From contig JABFSD010000189.1 in assembly GCA_013140935.1 (NCBI GenBank), positions 1 through 10,172 on the forward strand: a stretch of DNA of 10,172 nucleotides, given 5' to 3'. Shown here in pieces: positions 1 through 10,172 of the stretch. Each line of letters begins with the position of its first letter. The stretch's first letter is position 1. Source of the stretch: Acidobacteriota bacterium (GTDB lineage: Bacteria; Acidobacteriota; Blastocatellia; RBC074). The position numbers and the translations under genes are program-made. The notes under the pieces are model-generated. The model saw nothing but the letters and a program-made list of their open reading frames with translations, was not told the origin of the DNA and made no database searches.

Positions 1-313
1 CATCAATCCCAGTTCCGCCGAAACACAGGTGCAAGGCGCGGTCATAGACGGCCTCAGCGAAATGATGCAGGAAATCACGCTGAAAAACGGAGCGGTCGTG
101 CAATCGAACTATCACGAGCATCCGTGGCTGAAAATGTCGCAAACGCCGCCGCAAATCGAAGTCCATTTTCTGAAAACAAATAACCCGCCGACGGGCATGG
201 GCGAACCGGCGCTGCCGCCGATTCTACCCGCAGTTTGCAATGCGATTTTCACCGCGACGGGCGAACGCATTCGCACACTGCCGATGTCGAAACAAGGCTT
301 TAGCTTCGCATAA
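1..313 (+). CDS. Molybdopterin-binding large subunit of a xanthine dehydrogenase-family (IorB-like) hydroxylase, C-terminal fragment
   Basis: Only the last 103 codons are inside the window; the frame is open from base 2 and the 5' part lies upstream. A GTG at base 29 is in frame but is internal, because homology to the downstream paralogue continues on its 5' side. The fragment is the C-terminal end of the molybdenum-cofactor-binding subunit. It contains GMGEPALPP, whose Glu matches the conserved active-site glutamate of the xanthine dehydrogenase family, and ends in [17 protein letters not shown]. Over 94 aligned residues it matches the large subunit encoded at 2434-4644 at about 71 positions, with a one-residue insertion, and the two genes share an identical 28-base stretch (198-225 and 4529-4556). 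The [2Fe-2S] subunit gene begins 12 bases after its stop codon, so the two are very probably co-transcribed. Truncation is due to the window edge; nothing suggests a pseudogene. Substrate unknown. Confidence 0.9.
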
Positions 314-325
314 AGGAAAAAACTT

Positions 326-859
326 ATGATCAAACTGAAAGTAAACGGTAAGAACCAACAGTTCGACGGTGATCCTGAAATGCCGCTGCTGTGGTATTTG
401 CGAGATGAAGCCGATTTGAAAGGCACGAAATTCGGCTGCGGCATGGGCTTGTGCGGCGCGTGTACGATTCACGTCAACGGTCTGCCAACGCGCGCTTGTT
501 TAACGCCGGTGTCAGCGGCGGCGAATAAATCAATCACGACGATTGAAGGGCTTTCGGCGGAAGGTACGCATCCCGTGCAGGTCGCGTGGCAAGACCTAGA
601 CGTACCGCAATGCGGCTATTGTCAGGCCGGGCAGATGATGTCGGCCTGTGCATTGTTGGCGAAAACGCCGAAGCCCACCGACGCACAAATTGACGCCGCG
701 ATGGATGGCAATCTTTGTCGTTGTGGAACCTATCTGCGCATTCGTGCGGCGGTTCACAAAGCCGCTGAACTAACGACATCCAAAGCTGCGACGAAACCCG
801 CTGCCAAAGCGCCGCGCGCCGGAGCCAGCTTGATGCCTGCCAAAGGCGGCAAAAAATAA
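326..859 (+). CDS. (2Fe-2S)-binding small subunit of molybdenum hydroxylase (IorA/CoxS-like)
   Basis: This 177-residue protein carries the two [2Fe-2S] clusters that pass electrons away from the molybdenum centre of the large subunit. The N-terminal plant-type ferredoxin domain has ligands Cys38, Cys43, Cys46 and Cys58 (CGMGLCGAC and RAC). The C-terminal helical domain has Cys96, Cys99, Cys131 and Cys133 (CGYC and LCRC, 31 residues between the pairs), the standard pattern for this family. Residues after about 150 form an Ala/Lys-rich tail beyond the usual end of the fold, making the protein slightly longer than typical members (about 150-160). The ATG at 326 follows an AAAGGA ribosome-binding site (312-317) that overlaps the stop of the upstream large-subunit gene. 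There is no signal peptide; family knowledge suggests it is carried out as a folded complex by the Tat signal of its partner. It could pair with the upstream partial large subunit, the downstream complete one, or both. Confidence 0.95.
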
Positions 860-861
860 TT

Positions 862-866
862 AGGAG
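862..866 (+). promoter_or_regulatory. Ribosome-binding site of the propeller gene
   Basis: An AGGAG motif sits four bases before the ATG at 871, inside the 11-base gap after the [2Fe-2S] subunit stop. It fixes the start codon and supports translation from a shared message. Confidence 0.7.
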
Positions 867-870
867 ACTC

Positions 871-2124
871 ATGAAATTTTTATTTTCGATTACGTTACTT
901 TTTGCATTCGCTTTGTTGCCGCTGACGATTGGCAATACGGCAGCCGATGCCGAATGGCCGCAATGGCGCGGGGCGCTGCGCGATGGCAAATCCGTTGAAA
1001 CCGGCTTGCTCAAAACATGGCCTGAGAAAGGCCCAGGCGTCTCGTGGTCAATCGCCAATCTCGGCGAAGGTTACGGTTCGCTGGCAATTCGCGGCGAACG
1101 CATCTACGTGCAAGGCACAAGCGGCGCCACGGGTGAAGCCAAGAGTACGGTGTTTTGTTTGAACCGCGCCGACGGCAAGCAGATTTGGTCGGTCGCCTTT
1201 GGGCCGCGTTTGGATCAGGACAAAGGCAATGGGCCGCGCGGCACGCCTACGCTCGATGGCGATAGGATGTACGTCCTGACTGAGAACGGCGATCTGGCTT
1301 GCTTGCGCGAGAAAGATGGCTCATCGGTGTGGAGCAAAAACATCCTGAAAGAGTTCGGCGGCAGCAACCCCAAATGGCTGATCAGCGAATCGCCTTTGAT
1401 TGACGGCAATAAGTTGATCGTCTCGCCCGGCGGCAAAGAAGCAGGCATCGTCGCGCTCGACAAGATGACGGGCAAAGAAATTTGGCGCACCAAAGAGTTG
1501 AGCGCCGAGACCGGCTACGCGTCGAACATCATTGCCGAAGTCGGCGGTGTGCGCAGCTATCTCAACTTCACTTCCAGTGCAGCCGTTGGCGTGCGTGCGA
1601 GCGACGGCAAGCTGATGTTTTCTTATGCCAACGCTTCAAACCGTACTGCCAATTGCGCGACGGCGGTGCTGGCCGACAACAAAGTATTTTTCTCTTCGGC
1701 CTATGGCACAGGTGGAGCCTTGCTCAACCTCAAAGCCGAAAACGGCGAAGTGAAAGCCGAAGAAGCCTACTTCACCAAAGAGATGATGAACCATCACGGC
1801 GGCATGGTGTTGGTGAACGGTTATCTTTACGGATTCTCGAACGCGATTCTGACTTGCATCGAATTCAATACCGGCAAAGTGATGTGGAAAGACCGCAGCG
1901 TCGGCAAAGGTTCGCTCACTTATGCGGACGGCATGCTTTACCTGCTCGGCGAAAAACAACTCGTCGGCTTGGCCGAAGCCAGCCCTACGGCTTACGCTGA
2001 GAAAGGCCGCTTTCCGATCAATGATCGCGGTTGGGATAGCTGGGCGCATCCGGTCGTGCTGGGCGGCAAGCTGTATATCCGCAATCAAAACGAACTCACT
2101 TGCTATGACGTGAAGGCAAAATAA
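871..2124 (+). CDS. Secreted PQQ-like beta-propeller repeat protein
   Basis: This 417-residue protein starts with a Sec signal peptide: Lys2, a hydrophobic stretch at about 4-20, and probable cleavage after ADA27. The mature protein begins EWPQWRGALRDGKS, the characteristic opening of PQQ-binding-like (PQQ_2 / BamB-like) beta-propellers. Blade-like repeats follow, built as GxxIYV...LNRADGKQIW (about 74-106), DRMYVLTENGDLACL...GSSVW (131-154), KLIVSPGG...LDKMTGKEIW (181-205), a degenerate blade (222-250), KVFFSSAYG (271-279), YLYGFSNAILTCIEFNTGKVMW (318-339), GMLYLLGEKQLVGL (354-367) and KLYIRNQNELTCYDV (400-414). No CXXCH heme motif is present and the length fits a single propeller, so it is unlikely to be a quinohemoprotein dehydrogenase; real PQQ binding is doubtful. 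It lies 11 bases after the [2Fe-2S] subunit, which suggests co-expression. A role as periplasmic accessory or electron-transfer partner of the hydroxylase is inference only. Confidence 0.9.
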   Translation: MKFLFSITLLFAFALLPLTIGNTAADAEWPQWRGALRDGKSVETGLLKTWPEKGPGVSWSIANLGEGYGSLAIRGERIYVQGTSGATGEAKSTVFCLNRADGKQIWSVAFGPRLDQDKGNGPRGTPTLDGDRMYVLTENGDLACLREKDGSSVWSKNILKEFGGSNPKWLISESPLIDGNKLIVSPGGKEAGIVALDKMTGKEIWRTKELSAETGYASNIIAEVGGVRSYLNFTSSAAVGVRASDGKLMFSYANASNRTANCATAVLADNKVFFSSAYGTGGALLNLKAENGEVKAEEAYFTKEMMNHHGGMVLVNGYLYGFSNAILTCIEFNTGKVMWKDRSVGKGSLTYADGMLYLLGEKQLVGLAEASPTAYAEKGRFPINDRGWDSWAHPVVLGGKLYIRNQNELTCYDVKAK

Positions 2125-2125
2125 G

Positions 2126-2411
2126 GATTTTTTTTCTTCCACGAAATAACACGAAGAAAGACACGAAGAAGAATGTTTTGTTGGGAAGGTTCGCTGATCT
2201 TTGAATGGTTTCGGTGAGTGATGCAAGGGGCGGCAAAAAAAAGCAAAGAGAGGCAAAAATAGCAAAAAAACTTTTTGCCTTTTTTGCAACTTTTTGCCCT
2301 TTTTGCAGCCAATAGCTTTCACCTGCGAACCCATTCCATTCCACCTGAACTATCCACACCAGAGAAAGGTTTTCTTCGTGTCCTCCTTCGTGTGACTTCG
2401 TGGAGGAAATC
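2126..2411. repeat. Long imperfect palindrome filling the intergenic gap (fold-back/MITE-like element)
   Basis: The gap between the propeller stop (2124) and the next start (2434) contains one nested inverted repeat. The outer arms are 2134-2172 and 2370-2408; aligned as reverse complements they agree at 33 of 39 positions. Each arm holds three CACGAA units (left 2140, 2150, 2162) or TTCGTG units (right 2375, 2387, 2397), and the 10- and 12-base spacings are mirrored. Further in, GAATGG (2203-2208) pairs with CCATTC (2331-2336). Near the middle, GGCGGCAAAAA (from about 2229) faces TTTTTGCAGCC (to 2310), and GCAAAAA/TTTTTGC close around the centre. All pairs are centred near 2270, so this is one structure and not several hairpins. 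No protein is encoded convincingly. It could be a non-autonomous fold-back element or an mRNA hairpin separating the upstream and downstream genes. Confidence 0.75.
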
Positions 2412-2420
2412 TGAAAGCTA

Positions 2421-2425
2421 GAGGA
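2421..2425 (+). promoter_or_regulatory. Ribosome-binding site of the complete large subunit
   Basis: GAGGA lies eight bases before the ATG at 2434 and just outside the palindrome's right arm, so the element has not displaced the translation signal. It decides the start codon together with the Tat motif that follows immediately. Confidence 0.65.
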
Positions 2426-2433
2426 AAAATTTT

Positions 2434-4644
2434 ATGACTAAGATAAATGTCAATCGTCGCTCATTTCTAAAAGCCTCTGCGCTGGCAGGTGGAGGTTTCA
2501 TGTTAGGGCTTTATCCCAAAGCCGCTGCGGTATTGGCGCAACGCCAACAGGTTCCGCTGACGCCGACTGATTTCGTCAGCATCGCTGCTAACAATATCGT
2601 CACGATCATTTCGCGCAACCCTGAGACCGGACAACATTCGCTGAATATGCTGGCGATGCTGGTCGCCGACGAACTCGACGTAGACTGGAAGAACGTCAAA
2701 GTCATTCGCCCTGATGCCGATACGAAATACGGCCCGCAATTCACGGGCGGCAGCACGGCGACGCCGACGAATTGGGAGCCGATGCGACAGGTCGGCGCGG
2801 CTTCGCGGCACATGATCATCGCCGCCGCTGCACAAACGTGGGGCGTCACGGCTACGGAATGCACCACCGCATCAGGTCGCGTAATGCACGCGGCCTCGAA
2901 TCGTTCGGCTTCGTATGGCGAACTCGCCGCCAAAGCCGTGACTAGCCCCGTGCCCGATGTCAAAACGCTCAAGCTCAAAGACCCGAAGGATTACAAGATC
3001 ATCGGCACGACGACGCCTGACGTAGAGATCAAAGACATTGTGACCGGCAAACCGATTTTCGGCATTGATATAAAAGTGCCGGGCATGCTTTACGCGGTGT
3101 TTGAAAAGACGCCCGTACCCGGCGGCAAAGCCGTCAGCGCCAATCTCGACGCCGTCAAAGCGATGAAAGGCGTCAAGCATGCTTTCATCATCGAAGGCAA
3201 ACCGCGCATCAAAAACTTCCCCAACTTTTTGAACGATGACACCGGCCTCGAATCCGGCGTAGCCATCGTCGCCGACAGTTGGTGGGCCGCGAAAACTGCG
3301 CGCGAAAAACTTGAAGTGAAATGGGACGAAGGCCAATGGGCGACCTCCGACAGCGCCGCGATTGCGAAAAAGGCCGACGAACTTTCTAAGCAAACGCCTG
3401 CACGTACGCTACGCAAAGACGGCGACCCTGAAGCCGTTTTCAAACGCGCTGACGTAAAAGTCGTCGAGAGTTCTTATGTCTTCCCGTTCATCTCGCACGC
3501 GCCGCTCGAACCACAAAATTGCACCGCGCATTTCAAAGACGGGAAGCTCGAAATCTGGTCTACGAGCCAGACGCCGCAGATCGGCAAAACCATTGTGTCG
3601 CGCACGATGGGCATGCCTGAGAAAGACATCACCGTTCACATGGTACGCGCGGGCGGCGGCTTCGGGCGGCGGTTGTATAACGAATACATGGTCGAAGCCG
3701 CGTGGATTTCTAAAACCGTCGGCGCTCCGGTTAAGCTGCTGTGGACGCGCGAAGACGATATGCAACACGATTATTATCGTTCGGGCGGATTCCAATACCT
3801 GAAAGCCGCCGTAGACAACTCGGGCAAGCTCGTCGGCTGGCACAATCACTATGTTGGTTACGGCGAAGGCGAAACTTTCACGCACGCGGGTGAAGTCAAC
3901 GGCAACGAATTTCCTTCGCGGTTCATTCCGAACTTCCAACTGCAAGCGACGGTGATGCCGCTCGGCATCAAGACCGGAGCCTTGCGCGCGCCGCGTTCCA
4001 ACGTTTACGGCTGGGTCTATCAATCCTTCCTTGACGAACTCGCGCACGCGGCAGGCAAAGACCCAGTGCAATTCCGCCTGGAGTTGTTGAGCGCCGGGCC
4101 GCCAGCGGGTACGCAAGGCGTGATGAATCCGCAACGCATGATTGACGTAGTGAAACTCGTCGCCGAAAAATCAGGCTGGAGCCAACAGAAATTTCCCAAA
4201 GGCCGCGCGCTCGGCATCGGCTTTCATTACAGCCATCTCGGATACTTCGCCGAAGTCGCCGATGTGACCGTCAATGCCAACAAAAAAATCAAAGTGAATA
4301 AAGTCTGGGTCGTCGGTGACATCGGCAGCCACATCATCAACGTAGGCGCTTCAGAAAACCTCACGCAAGGCGCAATCGTAGACGGCATGAGCGAAATGTT
4401 GCAGGAAATTACGCTGGCAAAAGGCCGCGTCGTGCAATCGAACTACCACCAACATCCGCTGGTGAAGATGTCGCAAACGCCGCCCATCGAGGTGCATTGG
4501 ATCAAGTCCAACAACTCGCCTACGGGTTTGGGCGAACCGGCGCTGCCGCCGATTCTGCCTGCGATTGCGAACGCGGTTTTTTCTGCAACCGGCGAACGCA
4601 TTCGCACGATGCCGATGACGAAACAGGGCTTCAGCTTCGCGTAA
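2434..4644 (+). CDS. Tat-exported molybdopterin-binding large subunit, xanthine dehydrogenase family (isoquinoline 1-oxidoreductase beta-like)
   Basis: This 736-residue protein is the catalytic molybdenum-cofactor subunit of a periplasmic hydroxylase or dehydrogenase. The N-terminus has a twin-arginine signal (NRRSFLK, Arg8-Arg9), a hydrophobic segment to about 34 and probable cleavage near AVLA35. The order then follows IorB-like proteins: an N-terminal region with GGSTATPTNWEPMRQVGAASR, the first molybdopterin-binding domain, then the cofactor motif GGGFGRR at 407-413, GALRAPRSN at 515-523 (loop near the molybdenum site) and LGEPALPP near the C-terminus, where Glu701 is the expected catalytic base. 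The length agrees with single-chain IorB-type subunits (about 700-780). It belongs with the [2Fe-2S] subunit at 326-859 and is a close paralogue of the gene cut at the left window edge. The 309-base gap with a large palindrome upstream means it may be expressed separately from the first three genes. Family assignment is firm; the substrate (N-heterocycle, aldehyde or other) cannot be inferred. Confidence 0.95.
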   Translation: MTKINVNRRSFLKASALAGGGFMLGLYPKAAAVLAQRQQVPLTPTDFVSIAANNIVTIISRNPETGQHSLNMLAMLVADELDVDWKNVKVIRPDADTKYGPQFTGGSTATPTNWEPMRQVGAASRHMIIAAAAQTWGVTATECTTASGRVMHAASNRSASYGELAAKAVTSPVPDVKTLKLKDPKDYKIIGTTTPDVEIKDIVTGKPIFGIDIKVPGMLYAVFEKTPVPGGKAVSANLDAVKAMKGVKHAFIIEGKPRIKNFPNFLNDDTGLESGVAIVADSWWAAKTAREKLEVKWDEGQWATSDSAAIAKKADELSKQTPARTLRKDGDPEAVFKRADVKVVESSYVFPFISHAPLEPQNCTAHFKDGKLEIWSTSQTPQIGKTIVSRTMGMPEKDITVHMVRAGGGFGRRLYNEYMVEAAWISKTVGAPVKLLWTREDDMQHDYYRSGGFQYLKAAVDNSGKLVGWHNHYVGYGEGETFTHAGEVNGNEFPSRFIPNFQLQATVMPLGIKTGALRAPRSNVYGWVYQSFLDELAHAAGKDPVQFRLELLSAGPPAGTQGVMNPQRMIDVVKLVAEKSGWSQQKFPKGRALGIGFHYSHLGYFAEVADVTVNANKKIKVNKVWVVGDIGSHIINVGASENLTQGAIVDGMSEMLQEITLAKGRVVQSNYHQHPLVKMSQTPPIEVHWIKSNNSPTGLGEPALPPILPAIANAVFSATGERIRTMPMTKQGFSFA

Positions 4645-4717
4645 ATTGAAGCGTAGGGATCGGAGGATCGCCAGCAACAGAGGTACAAGCAGAAGCCTTC
4701 CTTACCAATCAGAAAAA

Positions 4718-5725
4718 CTATGGCAAGTGATTCAGTGCCGCGATGTTTGCTGCCTCGTGCAAGCGTTTCATTTCGTAATCGGTCAGCGCCCGTTTGAAAA
4801 CGGCTAATCCGCCAAACTTTCCCTTGGTCGCTTCGCGCAACATTTCACCGACGGCATAGCGTGCGGCGACGGTGAAATCAGCCCCGTCGCCGGGCTTCGT
4901 CGCCGCGTGCAATTTTGGGTCATACCGAAAGATGCCGCGCCCGTGATAGTAAGGATTCATCCCGCGATCTTTGCCACCCGGGCCTTCGCTGATGAAGTAA
5001 GGATCAGTGCGTTTGTCTTTCACCGGATCAAGCGCACGCGGTTCCATCACACCGTTGACGTAGGCGCGAATGTATTTGCCGTCATATGTGAAACCGAGCG
5101 TACACCATTCCTCTTCCGGCACTTTGGAAACCGAAGCGGCGTAATCAGCGCACCACGGAAACGCGCTGCCATTGGCTCGGCGCGTGACACCGCCTTCGCT
5201 GGATATGTGCGGCGTCAATTGCAGTGGCGCGCCGTATGTCGGCATATTCATCAACAGGGCGTATTGGCGTGTACCAGTGTCGTCATTTGCGCCTTTGCCT
5301 TCGCTCCACATACCGGCGATGGTGCGGCTTTGCTTTAGATCAATGATGCGCACGGCGGCAAACATGCTGACATGCGCGTCTTTGCCGCTAATGTTCAGGT
5401 CGCCAGTTTCGGCGTAGGGAATGCGAAAGTATTGTGTGCCGTTGAGTGCGGCGGAATACCCCGAAAACGGCCCGCCCGCGACACGCGCGATGGGGCCGCT
5501 GACTTCTTGCAACGGATGTTTTTGTTTAGTGCCAGAAGACACACGCGATTGTCCGGCGTCTTCGCCAAACGTCCAGAAGGCGACGAGTCCGGGTATTTTC
5601 TCTATGACTTTGCGGTTGCCGGTTGGCTTGGGAATTATTGCTTCGGAAGAATTGAAAGCACTGATTAAGAACAGCAAGGTGATACCGAAGTATAAGTGTA
5701 AGACCTTAACCTTGAATCCGATCAT
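4718..5725 (-). CDS. Secreted LamG-like (concanavalin A-like lectin/glucanase fold) protein
   Basis: I use the ATG at 5725 (335 residues) because it yields a classic Sec signal: Lys5 and Lys7, a hydrophobic core at about 8-23 and likely cleavage after SSEA29. An in-frame ATG at 5809 would add 28 residues and bury the signal, and no ribosome-binding site precedes it. The mature part reads as a LamG-like jelly-roll domain: [10 protein letters not shown] (45-53), [14 protein letters not shown] (91-104), a central strand region, [23 protein letters not shown] (about 205-226) and the family-typical ending [23 protein letters not shown] (about 304-326). Cys192 and Cys208 might form a disulfide in the periplasm or outside the cell. 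Such domains usually bind carbohydrate or other ligands; no catalytic motif is visible and the ligand is unknown. It lies downstream of the TonB-dependent receptor on the same strand but behind a strong terminator, so it is probably a separate unit. It converges with the molybdenum hydroxylase cluster (73-base gap with no clear terminator). Confidence 0.8.
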
Positions 5726-5804
5726 AAAACTTCTGGTTGTGTGGTTTAGCGGAATAGATTGCAACATCCACAACAATCCCACGACATCGAATGCACCAGC
5801 ATTT

Positions 5805-5858
5805 AGCAAAAGAGACGCAGCCGGCCAACGCCCATGCGCGGCCGGTTGCGTCTTTCGT
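5805..5858 (-). terminator. Intrinsic terminator after the TonB-dependent receptor gene
   Basis: The arms GACGCAGCCGGCC (5814-5826) and GGCCGGTTGCGTC (5840-5852) pair over 13 bases with a single G-U-compatible position around a 13-base loop. Read on the minus strand, the stem is followed by TCTTTT, giving a T-rich tail. It starts about 20 bases after the receptor stop at 5876. The plus-strand side also has a short T-rich stretch, but no plus-strand gene ends here. Confidence 0.8.
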
Positions 5859-5875
5859 CTAAATTTGGAAACAGG

Positions 5876-8800
5876 TTAGAACCTGAACTTCAGCGCCAAT
5901 TCCACTTGGCGCGGATCGAGCGTGCCCAATCCGTGCGTGCCGAAATTGGAACTGTCGCCGTATTTCGGCAGGATGCCGCTGGCCGAGTTGTTCCTGATCT
6001 CGATGTTGCCGAGGTTGCCGTTGTAATCAACGAAGTTGGCGCGATTGAGCATGTTCTGGAAGTTCGCCGAGAATTCAAACACGTACCGCTCCTTGAAGCG
6101 GAAATCGCGCTGCACGCTCATATTCCACAGATAAACGTTTTCGGTGCGGTAATCGGAATGGAACGGCGCGTTGCTGCCGCGCCAATACACGTTGCGTTGC
6201 AACGAGCCGTTCGCCGTGGTGACGACTTCGCCCTGAAAGGCGTCCGAACTGTAGCGCAGGAAGCAGAAATTGCAGGGCGTGATCCGGCGTCCGCTCGGCA
6301 AGGTGACCGTCGTTCTGCCGTCGTACCAGCGTTGCAGTTCCTTCGGCACTTCAATCGGAACGCCTGCCAGCCGGTGCGTGCGTCCGTTCAAGCTGTTGTT
6401 GGACGCGCCGCCCAGATTATCCGGCGTGCCTGTTTGTAAGGTGACGGAGCCGCCCGTGCGCCAGCCGCCCGCGATAGCGCGCACCACCGCATTGCCCGCC
6501 GCCAGCGCGCCGCCTTTGCCGAACGGCAGTTCGTACACATACGACGTGACAAACCGGTGCGGAATGTCGGTCGAGGCGAGATACTTGTTATTGTCCAGGT
6601 TGATGAGGTCGAAACCGCCTACGCCCGCGCCATCATCGAAGCCGTTGCTCTGGGCATTCGTGTTGGTGAATTGCAATTGCTTCGACCAGGTGTAATGCGC
6701 ATTGAATTGCAATCCGCTGGCAAAGCGCCGCTCAATCTGAAGCTGCAAGCCGTTGTAGTTTGAAAACCCCAGTGAACGTTGCGCGGTAAAACCCAGCAGG
6801 TGCGGGAAGGCATATAGCGTTTGGCGCAATTGCAACGTACGGTTGCCCAGCGATCCCGTGAAAGGAATAAGCGCGCCCGTCGCGGGTTGGTAAGGATTGG
6901 CAACCTGATCGGTGCCTTTATTGCCAGTGCCGTTGCGGGCGATGTAATCAGCGCGCCATTCATTGAGCGTGCTGTCGGAAAGGAACTGATCGTTATTGCC
7001 AAAGCTGACGCTGCCGATGGGCAGCCGCGTTCCGCGCGTGCCGACATACCCGGCTGAAGCCAACCAGTTTTTGCCGAATTGCCGTTGCACAAATAAATTC
7101 CACTGATGCGAACGACCGTTCTTGTGATTGTAATCAAAGCGCGGGTTGGAATTGCCGTACAGCGCCGGTGCGCTCAGATCGTTCGCCGTGGGAATAATCA
7201 CGCGCGTCACGTCGGCGAAGTTACCGACGACTACGCCCTGTGGATTCGTCCCGAATCGGTTGCTGTCCAGATACGGCGAGTAAGAACCCATGCCGTAATT
7301 ATAGGCTCCGTCGAAATAGCCGGTATTGGTCGGCAGATACGTCAGCCCGTAACCGCCGCGCACTACCGTGCTTTCTGTCAGCCGATAAGCGAAACCGAGG
7401 CGCGGGCCGAAGTTATCGTATTCGGGTTGCCACAGATATCCGCCCGGTCGGTTCGTGCCCGGAAAGATGACTTCGCCGCGCGTGCCGAAGGGATTTTTCC
7501 CATTCAAATCTACCGAACTGGCGCGGTTGAAGCGGTCTGTCGGCGGCGCTTGAAAATCCCAGCGCAGCCCCAGATTCAGCGTCAGCTTTTGCGTAGGCCG
7601 CCAATCGTTTTGCGTATACAGCGCGGAATATTTTTGCGACAACGCGGGCTTGACGTTGAAGCCCTGCCCGATTTCCAGATTCCCCGCGCCAAGCAGCAGG
7701 CTGGCGTAAGCGTGTCCGCCCTGATTGGCGTCCACTGCGTTGACCAATCCGCCCGTCGTGTTGATGATCGGGCCAGCCGTCAGCCCGCCATCCACGCGGA
7801 AAGAAATGGACTCCTGATTGTCGGTGTAATTCGAGAGCAGATTGCGGAACTCTGCCCCGCCTTTCAACGTCCACTTGCCCAGCGTTTTCGTCAGGTTCCC
7901 CACCAGATGCAGATTGGTTTGCCGCTCGAATTTATGCTGATAGGCGTTGGCTTCCAGCGCCGACCAGTAAGCCGCGCCGCTGGTGAAAAAGTTGGGCGGC
8001 ACGCCCGGCAACTGAATCGCCGCTTGCAGCCGCGCGGGAATGCCGAAGTCCGCATAATTGAGATCGTCGTAACCCGGCGTGCGCGATTGCGTGCTGATGC
8101 GGTTGAAGCCGAAACGGATGTCGGCGACCAGGCTGGGAGAAAGCGTCCAGGTGTCACCGAGCGAGCCGTAATAGTTGTTGTCCTGTGTCAGGCGCGCGAA
8201 ACCTTCCGCGCCGCTGCTGAACCGGCTGTCGTCTGCCCACGTCGAAGGCGTATTGATGATTCCCTTGTTGAGACCGCCGGTGAAATAGAGCGAATGATTC
8301 TGTCCCAGCCGGTAATCCACGCGCGAGTTGAGATTGTTGCGCGAAAATGTGCGCGTCGCCGTGCGGATAAAATTATTGGTTCCGAAAGCGTCATCGGGCG
8401 TGCGGTTCGGCAGCGGATAGTTGCTGAACAGGCGCAGGATGTTCGGGTCGGGATTGGTGATGATGGCGTTGGGAATTTCCTGCCGCGTGAAGGCGTTGTT
8501 GCCCGTCGCCGTGACTTTGTAAGGATCGAAGAGTTGCAGCTTGGTTGCCGTGCCTCTGACATTCACCAGCGTCTGGCTGAAATCGCCCTTGCGCTCACGC
8601 TCGGTCGGCACGGTGCGCAGAAAGACCGCGCCCTGATCGAAGCTCAGCCCCTCGTAGCTGGTGAAAAAAACCAGCTTGTCCTTGCCATTGTAAAGTTTGG
8701 GAATGCGCACCGATCCGCCAAACGTGCCGCCGTAGGTGTAGACCTTGAACTCAGGCCGCGCAATCGCCCGCGCGTTGTTGCTGAAACTGTTGGCGTTGAG

Positions 8801-9643
8801 CTTGTCGTTGCGATGACGCATAAAGCCGCTGCCGTGATATTCGTTGGTTCCGCTCTTGGTCGTCAGGCTGACGACGGCCTGACCGCGCCCGTATTCGGCG
8901 GTGAAGTTGTTGATGTTGGTGCGCACTTCCTGAATGCCGTCGCTGTTGGGCGTGACGGCGACTTCGTTCCAGGCCGAGCCTTGAATGCTGACTCCATCCA
9001 GTTGAATGTCATTGGTGAAAGCCTGCCCGCCATTGGCTGAGAACGCTGAAAATTGTCGCCGGCCTTCGATGCCGATGCCAAAGCTGTTCGGGCCGGTGGA
9101 ATCGTTGAAACGCGCGCGCGGCGTCATGCCTTGTTGCAACGCGACGTAATTGAGCGCGTTGTGTGTGACATTCGGCAGCGTTTGGATAACACGCTCGTTG
9201 ACGGCATTGCTCACCGTCGCGGTTTCGGTCTGAAGCTGCGCCACATTGGCTTCGACATTGATCTGGTTTTCCACCTGGCCGACCTGCAACGTGATGTTGA
9301 CGCGCGCCGATTGACCGGTAGTCAAGGGCAGCCCGCTTTGCACATACGTTGAAAACCCTGATTGCTTGACGGTGATTGAATACACACCGGCTTGCAAATA
9401 CGGCACGGTGAATTCGCCGTCGGCATTGGTGGCGACATCGTATTTCTGATTGGTGTTTTGTTCCGTGACGGCGACCGTCGCGCCTGCTACGACGGAACCG
9501 GAAGTGTCAGTGACATTGCCGGTGATCGTGCCTGATTTGATTTGCGCCAGCACCACATTGGCGCAGAGCAGACCCAGCGCCAACGCGAGCAACGTTCTTT
9601 TGACGGAGTGCGCGGGAAAGCCCAGTGCTTGAAAAGTGTTCAT
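5876..9643 (-). CDS. TonB-dependent receptor with N-terminal carboxypeptidase-regulatory-like domain (Oar-like, acidobacterial type)
   Basis: This 1255-residue outer-membrane protein is predicted to import or bind a ligand using TonB energy. The start at 9643 is chosen because AAAGGAG lies at 9651-9657, seven bases upstream, and a Sec signal peptide follows directly (Lys16-Arg17, hydrophobic 18-30, cleavage near VLA33). Residues about 36-120 form the carboxypeptidase D regulatory-like beta-sandwich (GTITGNVTDTSGSVVAGATV, NADGEFTVPYLQAGVYSITV). The plug domain covers about 125-265 (ending GRGQAVVSLTTKSGTNEYHG), and the remaining 980 or so residues are barrel strands, ending in ALKFRF with the C-terminal Phe typical of BamA-inserted barrels. 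This architecture resembles Oar of myxobacteria and the many acidobacterial paralogues, often linked to polymer or protein-derived substrates; the ligand here is unknown. A CNFC pair (Cys1124, Cys1127) in the barrel is unusual. No TonB box could be identified by eye. Confidence 0.95.
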   Translation of the reverse strand: MNTFQALGFPAHSVKRTLLALALGLLCANVVLAQIKSGTITGNVTDTSGSVVAGATVAVTEQNTNQKYDVATNADGEFTVPYLQAGVYSITVKQSGFSTYVQSGLPLTTGQSARVNITLQVGQVENQINVEANVAQLQTETATVSNAVNERVIQTLPNVTHNALNYVALQQGMTPRARFNDSTGPNSFGIGIEGRRQFSAFSANGGQAFTNDIQLDGVSIQGSAWNEVAVTPNSDGIQEVRTNINNFTAEYGRGQAVVSLTTKSGTNEYHGSGFMRHRNDKLNANSFSNNARAIARPEFKVYTYGGTFGGSVRIPKLYNGKDKLVFFTSYEGLSFDQGAVFLRTVPTERERKGDFSQTLVNVRGTATKLQLFDPYKVTATGNNAFTRQEIPNAIITNPDPNILRLFSNYPLPNRTPDDAFGTNNFIRTATRTFSRNNLNSRVDYRLGQNHSLYFTGGLNKGIINTPSTWADDSRFSSGAEGFARLTQDNNYYGSLGDTWTLSPSLVADIRFGFNRISTQSRTPGYDDLNYADFGIPARLQAAIQLPGVPPNFFTSGAAYWSALEANAYQHKFERQTNLHLVGNLTKTLGKWTLKGGAEFRNLLSNYTDNQESISFRVDGGLTAGPIINTTGGLVNAVDANQGGHAYASLLLGAGNLEIGQGFNVKPALSQKYSALYTQNDWRPTQKLTLNLGLRWDFQAPPTDRFNRASSVDLNGKNPFGTRGEVIFPGTNRPGGYLWQPEYDNFGPRLGFAYRLTESTVVRGGYGLTYLPTNTGYFDGAYNYGMGSYSPYLDSNRFGTNPQGVVVGNFADVTRVIIPTANDLSAPALYGNSNPRFDYNHKNGRSHQWNLFVQRQFGKNWLASAGYVGTRGTRLPIGSVSFGNNDQFLSDSTLNEWRADYIARNGTGNKGTDQVANPYQPATGALIPFTGSLGNRTLQLRQTLYAFPHLLGFTAQRSLGFSNYNGLQLQIERRFASGLQFNAHYTWSKQLQFTNTNAQSNGFDDGAGVGGFDLINLDNNKYLASTDIPHRFVTSYVYELPFGKGGALAAGNAVVRAIAGGWRTGGSVTLQTGTPDNLGGASNNSLNGRTHRLAGVPIEVPKELQRWYDGRTTVTLPSGRRITPCNFCFLRYSSDAFQGEVVTTANGSLQRNVYWRGSNAPFHSDYRTENVYLWNMSVQRDFRFKERYVFEFSANFQNMLNRANFVDYNGNLGNIEIRNNSASGILPKYGDSSNFGTHGLGTLDPRQVELALKFRF

Positions 9644-9650
9644 TGAAATT

Positions 9651-9657
9651 CTCCTTT
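9651..9657 (-). promoter_or_regulatory. Ribosome-binding site fixing the TonB-dependent receptor start
   Basis: On the minus strand AAAGGAG lies seven bases before the ATG at 9643. This strong site, followed at once by a signal peptide, argues against the longer in-frame start at 9817. Confidence 0.8.
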
Positions 9658-9687
9658 GGGTTAGCGAAAGACGAAGTAAAACGTCCA

Positions 9688-9706
9688 GACACACGAAACG
9701 TGCGTC
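9688..9706. promoter_or_regulatory. 19-base palindrome upstream of the receptor gene (possible operator or leader hairpin)
   Basis: GACACACG, a three-base AAA spacer and CGTGCGTC form an inverted repeat matching at 7 of 8 positions, 45 bases before the receptor start codon. The size and position suit a dimeric regulator site or a 5'-leader hairpin. I could not identify a convincing -35/-10 pair around it, so the role is a guess. Confidence 0.35.
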
Positions 9707-9885
9707 AGCCGTTCCAGTTGAGCTTGAGTATTGCGCTCTTTTTTTGGCCGCTGTTGGCGTAGGGCAATTCCCGCGCCTTGCGCTGGCGTCTATGCGCCGC
9801 ACTGTAATGTGAAGCAAAGCTAGAGTGGGAAGCTAGCACGATTCAAAACGCCGCCGCTTCCCCCGAAAGATAGAGGCTGAAGTTT

Positions 9886-10172
9886 TTATTCCAGAAAAAT
9901 TATCCCGCGCTGAATGGCCGTCGTCACAGCGGCGGTGCGGTCGTTGACGCCGAGTTTGGAAAGAATGCCGATGACGTGCGTTTTGACCGTGCCTTCGGTG
10001 ATGGCGAGCCGCGCCGCGATTTCACGGTTACTCAAGCCTTTGGCGATCAGTCGCAACACATCGCCCTCACGGAAACCGCTTAAAAAGTCCGAGTGCGAAG
10101 TAAGCAGAACACACGTCGGACTGGTTTTGATCCGCACGTTAAGCGGGTTGCGCGGTGGGCGCAGCCAGTAAC
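9886..10172 (-). CDS. NarL/FixJ-family (LuxR-type HTH) transcriptional regulator, 5' end unresolved or outside window
   Basis: The C-terminal part is a clear LuxR-type helix-turn-helix domain: [19 protein letters not shown], then [14 protein letters not shown] (recognition helix) and [21 protein letters not shown], ending IIFLE. In NarL/FixJ response regulators this domain follows a phosphorylated receiver domain and binds promoter DNA as a dimer. The reading frame is open to the window edge; the first in-frame start inside the window is a GTG at 10137 with no ribosome-binding site. The residues just upstream ([18 protein letters not shown]... SDFLSGF) resemble neither a receiver domain nor the usual LTxRE entry to the HTH domain. 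The gene may continue upstream, or its 5' part may have been replaced by other DNA; an inverted repeat at 10086-10122 lies in this odd segment. It is encoded upstream of the TonB-dependent receptor on the same strand, but regulation of it is unproven. Confidence 0.75.
10086..10122. repeat. Inverted repeat inside the atypical 5' segment of the LuxR-type gene
   Basis: AGTCCGA (10086-10092) and TCGGACT (10116-10122) are perfect 7-base inverted repeats separated by 23 bases, flanked by A-rich and T-rich sequence. The repeat coincides with the stretch that does not look like LuxR-family coding sequence, so it may belong to an inserted element; chance cannot be excluded. Confidence 0.4.

Follow-up and report, generated by a model that had tools for sequence, protein, structure and literature searches.

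A nested palindrome lies between two co-directional genes

The window analysed here is a stretch of 10,172 bp (contig JABFSD010000189.1, positions 1 to 10,172) from an Acidobacteriota bacterium, whose genome (GCA_013140935.1, hereafter G000) measures 6.09 Mb and is 73.8% complete. Two genes of the same direction are separated by a palindrome that encloses a second palindrome:

871 to 2124, plus strand: upstream gene, PQQ/BamB-type beta-propeller protein; its stop codon lies 8 nt before the outer arm
2133 to 2170, plus strand: outer left arm, CACGAA three times, starting at 2140, 2150 and 2162
2171 to 2371: loop of the outer palindrome, 201 nt, its outer portions partly paired
2203 to 2336: inner palindrome, aligned span, with core arrays at about 2230 to 2309
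2372 to 2409, plus strand: outer right arm, TTCGTG three times, starting at 2375, 2387 and 2397
2434 to 4644, plus strand: downstream gene, molybdopterin-binding large subunit; its ATG lies 309 nt past the upstream stop codon

Further along the window, the minus strand encodes a large outer-membrane protein of the TonB-receptor type that has a carboxypeptidase-regulatory domain (5876-9817). None of the five window ORFs that we scanned matched a transposase family, in agreement with the original prediction, made from the sequence alone, that no transposase lies nearby.

The outer arms are 38 nt each, show 87% complementarity, and form inverted arrays of the word CACGAAG/CTTCGTG, with three words per arm placed 10-12 nt apart. 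The original prediction had placed one fold-back at 2126-2411, with 39-base arms (33/39 complementary) built of three CACGAA or TTCGTG units in mirrored 10/12-base spacing. The palindrome and its arms are real and the word starts agree with that arrangement, but the paired outer edges lie at 2133-2409 and the arms are slightly shorter than proposed. Within the loop, GCAAAAA starts at 2233, 2253 and 2262, and TTTTTGC at 2272, 2281, 2291 and 2300. This inner palindrome scores 37, whereas none of 20 shuffled loops exceeds 17, and its axis is offset by -1 bp from the outer one. The predicted single fold-back is actually two palindromes of different word families, the second lying in the loop of the first. 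A GCAAAAA-type inner stretch resembling that of the window is found in two further copies, L020 and L029.

The stretch also folded better than chance against shuffled controls, a comparison that the original prediction had proposed. Its RNA fold reached -120.2 kcal/mol, compared with -69.96 +/- 5.16 for 200 dinucleotide shuffles (z -9.74), none of which (0/200) folded equally well, and the DNA fold likewise beat the shuffles (z -7.79).

CTTCGTG palindromes are dispersed within one bacterial family

When G000 was searched with positions 2100-2430, we obtained 58 matches: 54 hit the arms and 2 the inner part, and the rest were the window matching itself on either strand. The arm pattern with one mismatch allowed matched 38 times in the same genome, whereas a control pattern matched once, and with both searches pooled, CTTCGTG arms were found on 36 contigs. 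We also ran the exact arm pattern against 58 genomes from the genus, family and class to which the window belongs; it matched 150 times, in 7 genomes that all belong to a single family, and the control pattern 0 times. Among 22 measured copies, the loop ranged from 11 to 290 nt.

The constancy of the words among these copies is no evidence, because the search expression fixed them. The spacer bases between the words differ among copies, yet they pair across the arms in 212 of 270 cases, compared with 189.0 +/- 5.1 after permutation of the arms; with near-identical copies removed, the figures are 187 of 242 and 167.3. A target duplication, which the original prediction had named as something to look for, was not found: in 36 copies the longest flanking direct repeat averaged 4.0 nt, compared with 4.1 nt when flank partners were shuffled. 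Within 14 nt outside the arms, GTAG/CTAC was present in 0/36 copies and CGTC/GACG in 6/36.

Two side observations concern the surroundings of these repeats. The palindromes tend to lie near gene 3' ends, with 15/26 having a facing stop codon no more than 25 nt away, compared with 31% of random non-ORF points at the same loci (binomial p 0.0045; copies from L009-L032, L276-L295 and the window); ORFs were called mechanically for this comparison, and 8 of the 36 copies lie inside a long ORF while 2 more have no facing 3' end. Separately, the relative G001 contains a 123-bp palindromic repeat (L276:2759-2881, that is, C31:145558-145680) that is not of the CTTCGTG type and has many further copies in that genome, with both strands matching.

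The window palindrome is a lineage-specific insertion

In three relatives (G001, G004 and G008), the same gene pair is separated by a gap of 9 nt that holds no palindrome, compared with 309 nt in the window. The same junction in G006 is about 1 kb long and contains a RAYT-like gene, with palindromes of other sequence on either side; this gene (L059:590-1333, minus strand) sits between GTGGGACAGG-type palindromes and scores 69.4 bits against NF047646, under the cut-off of 80. The window element is an insertion between two co-directional genes in this lineage. One of the two readings in the original prediction, a MITE-like element, is borne out by the many copies in the genome and by the element-free orthologous sites; copies elsewhere together with insert-free junctions point to a mobile MITE-like element and not to a conserved intercistronic RNA.

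Palindromes nest centrally in one another

Of the 22 measured copies, 10 have loops of at least 40 nt, and in 9/10 an inner palindrome beats all 20 shuffled loops, with its axis 0 to 9.5 bp from the outer axis. The exception is L021, whose loop holds no inner palindrome above its shuffles. The inner words belong to varying families (AATCCTG, CATTCTC and GCAAAAA). At the three loci with a CATTCTC insert, the alignment runs through the insert and is lost outside the outer arms, and at four of the five with an AATCCTG insert it extends into the right outer arm, L024 diverging earlier. Judging by these alignments, nested composites seem to have been copied as wholes, so the nine nested cases do not represent nine separate nesting events. 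Five copies in G001 (L277, L278, L281, L285 and L288) belong to a larger repeated element, about TGTCCTAAAGTTGTG...AGGACACAAC, which has the CTTCGTG palindrome at its centre. A preference for loops as landing places is suggested, and we put it no higher because copies with arms disrupted by an insert would more easily escape the search.

Fuller copies carry a GxxExxY gene between the arms

A lead from other genomes, namely that GxxExxY genes lie among such repeats, was tested here. One of the three PF13366 genes of G000, on contig C829, has CTTCGTG arms on either side; of the other two, that on C1114 begins at the contig end and that on C254 is flanked by weak arms built of a different word (score 23). 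The combination of CTTCGTG arms and a GxxExxY gene was also found in G001 (contig C22) and G009 (contig C787).

We then compared two of these gene-bearing sites among relatives. At the C829 site the gap measures 11 nt in G006 and G008 and 24 nt in G004; G001 and G009 have an extra ORF there, and in G007 (L271) the gap between the two genes holds another repeated-word palindrome, of the ATCCAGCATCC type. At the C22 site of G001, G003 and G004 have no palindrome, an AATCCTG palindrome is present in G006, and G000 has a gene-less CACGAA palindrome whose spacers differ. The palindromes are thus dispersed, and gene-less and gene-bearing forms are lineage-specific at orthologous sites. The element at 2133-2409 belongs to a family of mobile palindromes, as a nested copy that lacks a gene; fuller members of the family have a gene for a GxxExxY nuclease between their arms.

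At L033, the gene enclosed by the arms scores 147.3 bits against TIGR04256 (cut-off 35) and 144 bits against PF13366 (cut-off 22), and the E, D, ExK and QxxxY nuclease residues are invariant in 21 GxxExxY proteins. A confident structural model of the protein is PD-(D/E)XK-like, and the protein is predicted to be a nuclease. Foldseek found no PDB match at E <= 0.001; among its weak rows was 3r3p, a homing endonuclease catalytic domain (E 0.24).

Inverted arms accompany GxxExxY genes in many phyla

A gene was counted as having arms when its two flanks reached a local alignment score of at least 28 in inverted orientation. The class set comprised 72 loci among the matches listed, 71 with both flanks, and included all 26 listed for the window's family; the many-phyla set comprised the best 80 of at least 586 loci, all of one protein clade, and came to 77 once 3 with too short a flank had been left out. 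Inverted arms were present at 59/71 class loci (among the matches listed) and at 57/77 many-phyla loci (best 80 of at least 586) with profile coordinates, or 61/77 of this same selection with tblastn coordinates. Under the threshold were 12/71 loci listed for the class and 20/77 of the best 80 of at least 586 from many phyla. According to their record titles, the many-phyla loci that reach the score with tblastn coordinates include ones from Methanosarcinales, Methanothrix and Methanophagales archaea, a cyanobacterium, Chloroflexota, Planctomycetota, Bacteroidota and Proteobacteria. The arm words at GxxExxY loci include CTTCGTG, CTCTGTG, CTCTGCG, CTCCGTG, CTTTGCG, ATCCG, ATCCTG and TTCCGT.

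The association was set against several controls. Of 30 PIN-domain genes (30 of a longer list), taken from genomes in this set, 0/30 had inverted arms, and windows shifted along the many-phyla loci (best 80 of at least 586) reached the score in 2/262. When flank partners were swapped among those best 80 loci, 24% still reached it, because the loci have a word in common. A stricter count, which required a word array in both arms, gave 33/71 for the class (among the matches listed) and 37/77 for the many-phyla set (best 80 of at least 586), with 0/30 PIN genes (of the longer list) and 1/383 shifted windows. In a smaller, earlier test, 16/31 GxxExxY loci lay above the 99% line of swapped partners.

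Arm words vary together with the protein

Among the 59 class loci with arms (among the matches listed), arm similarity correlated with protein similarity (Spearman 0.478; permutation maximum 0.177 in 2000), and the correlation persisted among distant protein pairs (0.409 and 0.253). For the 57 many-phyla loci (best 80 of at least 586), the coefficient was 0.296 (maximum 0.198 in 500). This covariation of word and protein shows the arms to be part of the element; it falls short of proving recognition, because it could also arise if arms and gene were simply inherited together. The number of CTTCGTG arms per genome was 29, 49 and 32 in three genomes with a CTTCGTG-type gene, compared with 18, 2, 10 and 10 in four that have such arms and, among the matches listed, no GxxExxY gene of that type (exact p 0.029, in a small sample of related genomes compared post hoc).

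Possible mechanism and alternative explanations

The association of arms with the gene against controls, the correlation between word and protein, and the central nesting bear on how these palindromes spread. Their best explanation, and probably the right one, is that the GxxExxY nuclease drives palindrome movement. We infer the mobilising enzyme, the position of its cut, the joining of the copy and the preference for loops, and would picture the steps as follows. Each GxxExxY clade would recognise its own word array, and the nuclease would cut at or near the palindrome, perhaps when this is extruded as a cruciform. Cutting would mobilise copies that bear the gene in cis and palindromes that lack it in trans, and the loops of resident palindromes would serve as tolerated or favoured landing places, giving rise to nests.

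A different enzyme could instead be the mover, the most plausible candidate being a REP-associated (HUH, Y1) transposase, with GxxExxY as a passenger between the arms. There is an established precedent in the REP palindromes that RAYTs move (PMC3733652). Y1_Tnp genes are present in 10/11 genomes searched and are flanked by inverted repeats (11/22 above the null 99% line), and at the very junction of the window G006 has its RAYT-like gene with palindromes of its own. However, the repeats that flank the 22 Y1 loci have other sequences, the GTAG tag is absent from every CTTCGTG copy inspected (36/36), and a two-word CTTCGTG array occurs at just 2/30 Y1_Tnp loci, in both cases more than 1.2 kb from the gene, and not at L059; the Y1_Tnp survey used the Pfam cut-off, below which divergent RAYTs such as that of L059 fall. 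We consider a transposase of this kind an unlikely mover. Alternatively, GxxExxY may be a homing endonuclease that invades pre-existing palindromes, its gene splitting its own recognition site, while the palindromes multiply in some other way. The gene does sit between two arms, like a homing gene inside its site; G000 has a gene-less CACGAA palindrome where G001 has the gene-bearing copy at C22; the lack of a target-site duplication in the 36 copies fits, and one of the weak Foldseek matches is to a homing endonuclease catalytic domain (3r3p, E 0.24). Against this, both gene-bearing sites are free of any palindrome in relatives (C22 in G003 and G004; C829 in G004, G006 and G008), so that the arms as well as the gene were gained or lost, and the spacers differ in the palindrome that G000 has at C22. 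We consider homing an improbable account of the family.

In the other reading of the original prediction, the palindrome is a conserved intercistronic RNA structure that would keep the second large subunit uncoupled from the genes before it. This reading draws on the very stable fold between co-directional genes. It fails on conservation: G001, G004 and G008 have this gene pair with a 9-nt gap and no palindrome, and the G006 junction differs; related arms also occur at many unrelated sites. An Rfam search of six loci gave 0 hits at the gathering score and 9 sub-threshold ones (8 microRNA-type and 1 snoRNA). We regard this reading as disfavoured to the point of being scarcely credible, and the palindrome may have a secondary effect on the transcript.

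Returning to the nuclease-driven element, a broader proposal, which we advance tentatively and at slightly less than an even chance, is that GxxExxY genes and word-array palindromes make up one mobile-element class across bacteria and archaea, in which a lone nuclease reads a clade-specific array, mobilises both kinds of copy and targets resident loops (cruciform tips), so that families stack. If true, this would give a function to a widespread nuclease family barely mentioned in the open-access literature, account for abundant intergenic palindromes of many phyla, and explain the origin of nested palindromes. It would also represent a new kind of mobile element, with a lone PD-(D/E)XK nuclease in place of a known transposase, and the pairing of protein clade and arm word would be a natural code from protein sequence to DNA target.

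Comparison with known systems

Among the matches listed for one open-access PMC library, the scope of our search, we found no description of such an element; the arm-word strings matched a fish eDNA study, judging by its title. PD-(D/E)XK-class homing endonucleases have a small nuclease gene between the halves of a symmetric site, and the gene-bearing copies share this arrangement, but the element described here is scattered over unrelated intergenic sites and has many gene-less copies. Like MITEs, its gene-less inverted-repeat copies are dispersed in intergenic DNA, and the corresponding sites in relatives lack the element. Unlike MITEs, no target-site duplication was found in 36 copies, the presumed parent encodes no known transposase, and the copies nest centrally in one another. 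REP/REPtron systems are similar in consisting of short intergenic palindromes in many copies, often near gene 3' ends, with fuller versions that flank a single enzyme gene. They differ in that the REPtron enzyme, RAYT, is an HUH tyrosine transposase, whereas the enzyme here belongs to a predicted PD-(D/E)XK nuclease family, and the arms here are arrays of a repeated word with the GTAG tag in 0/36 copies.
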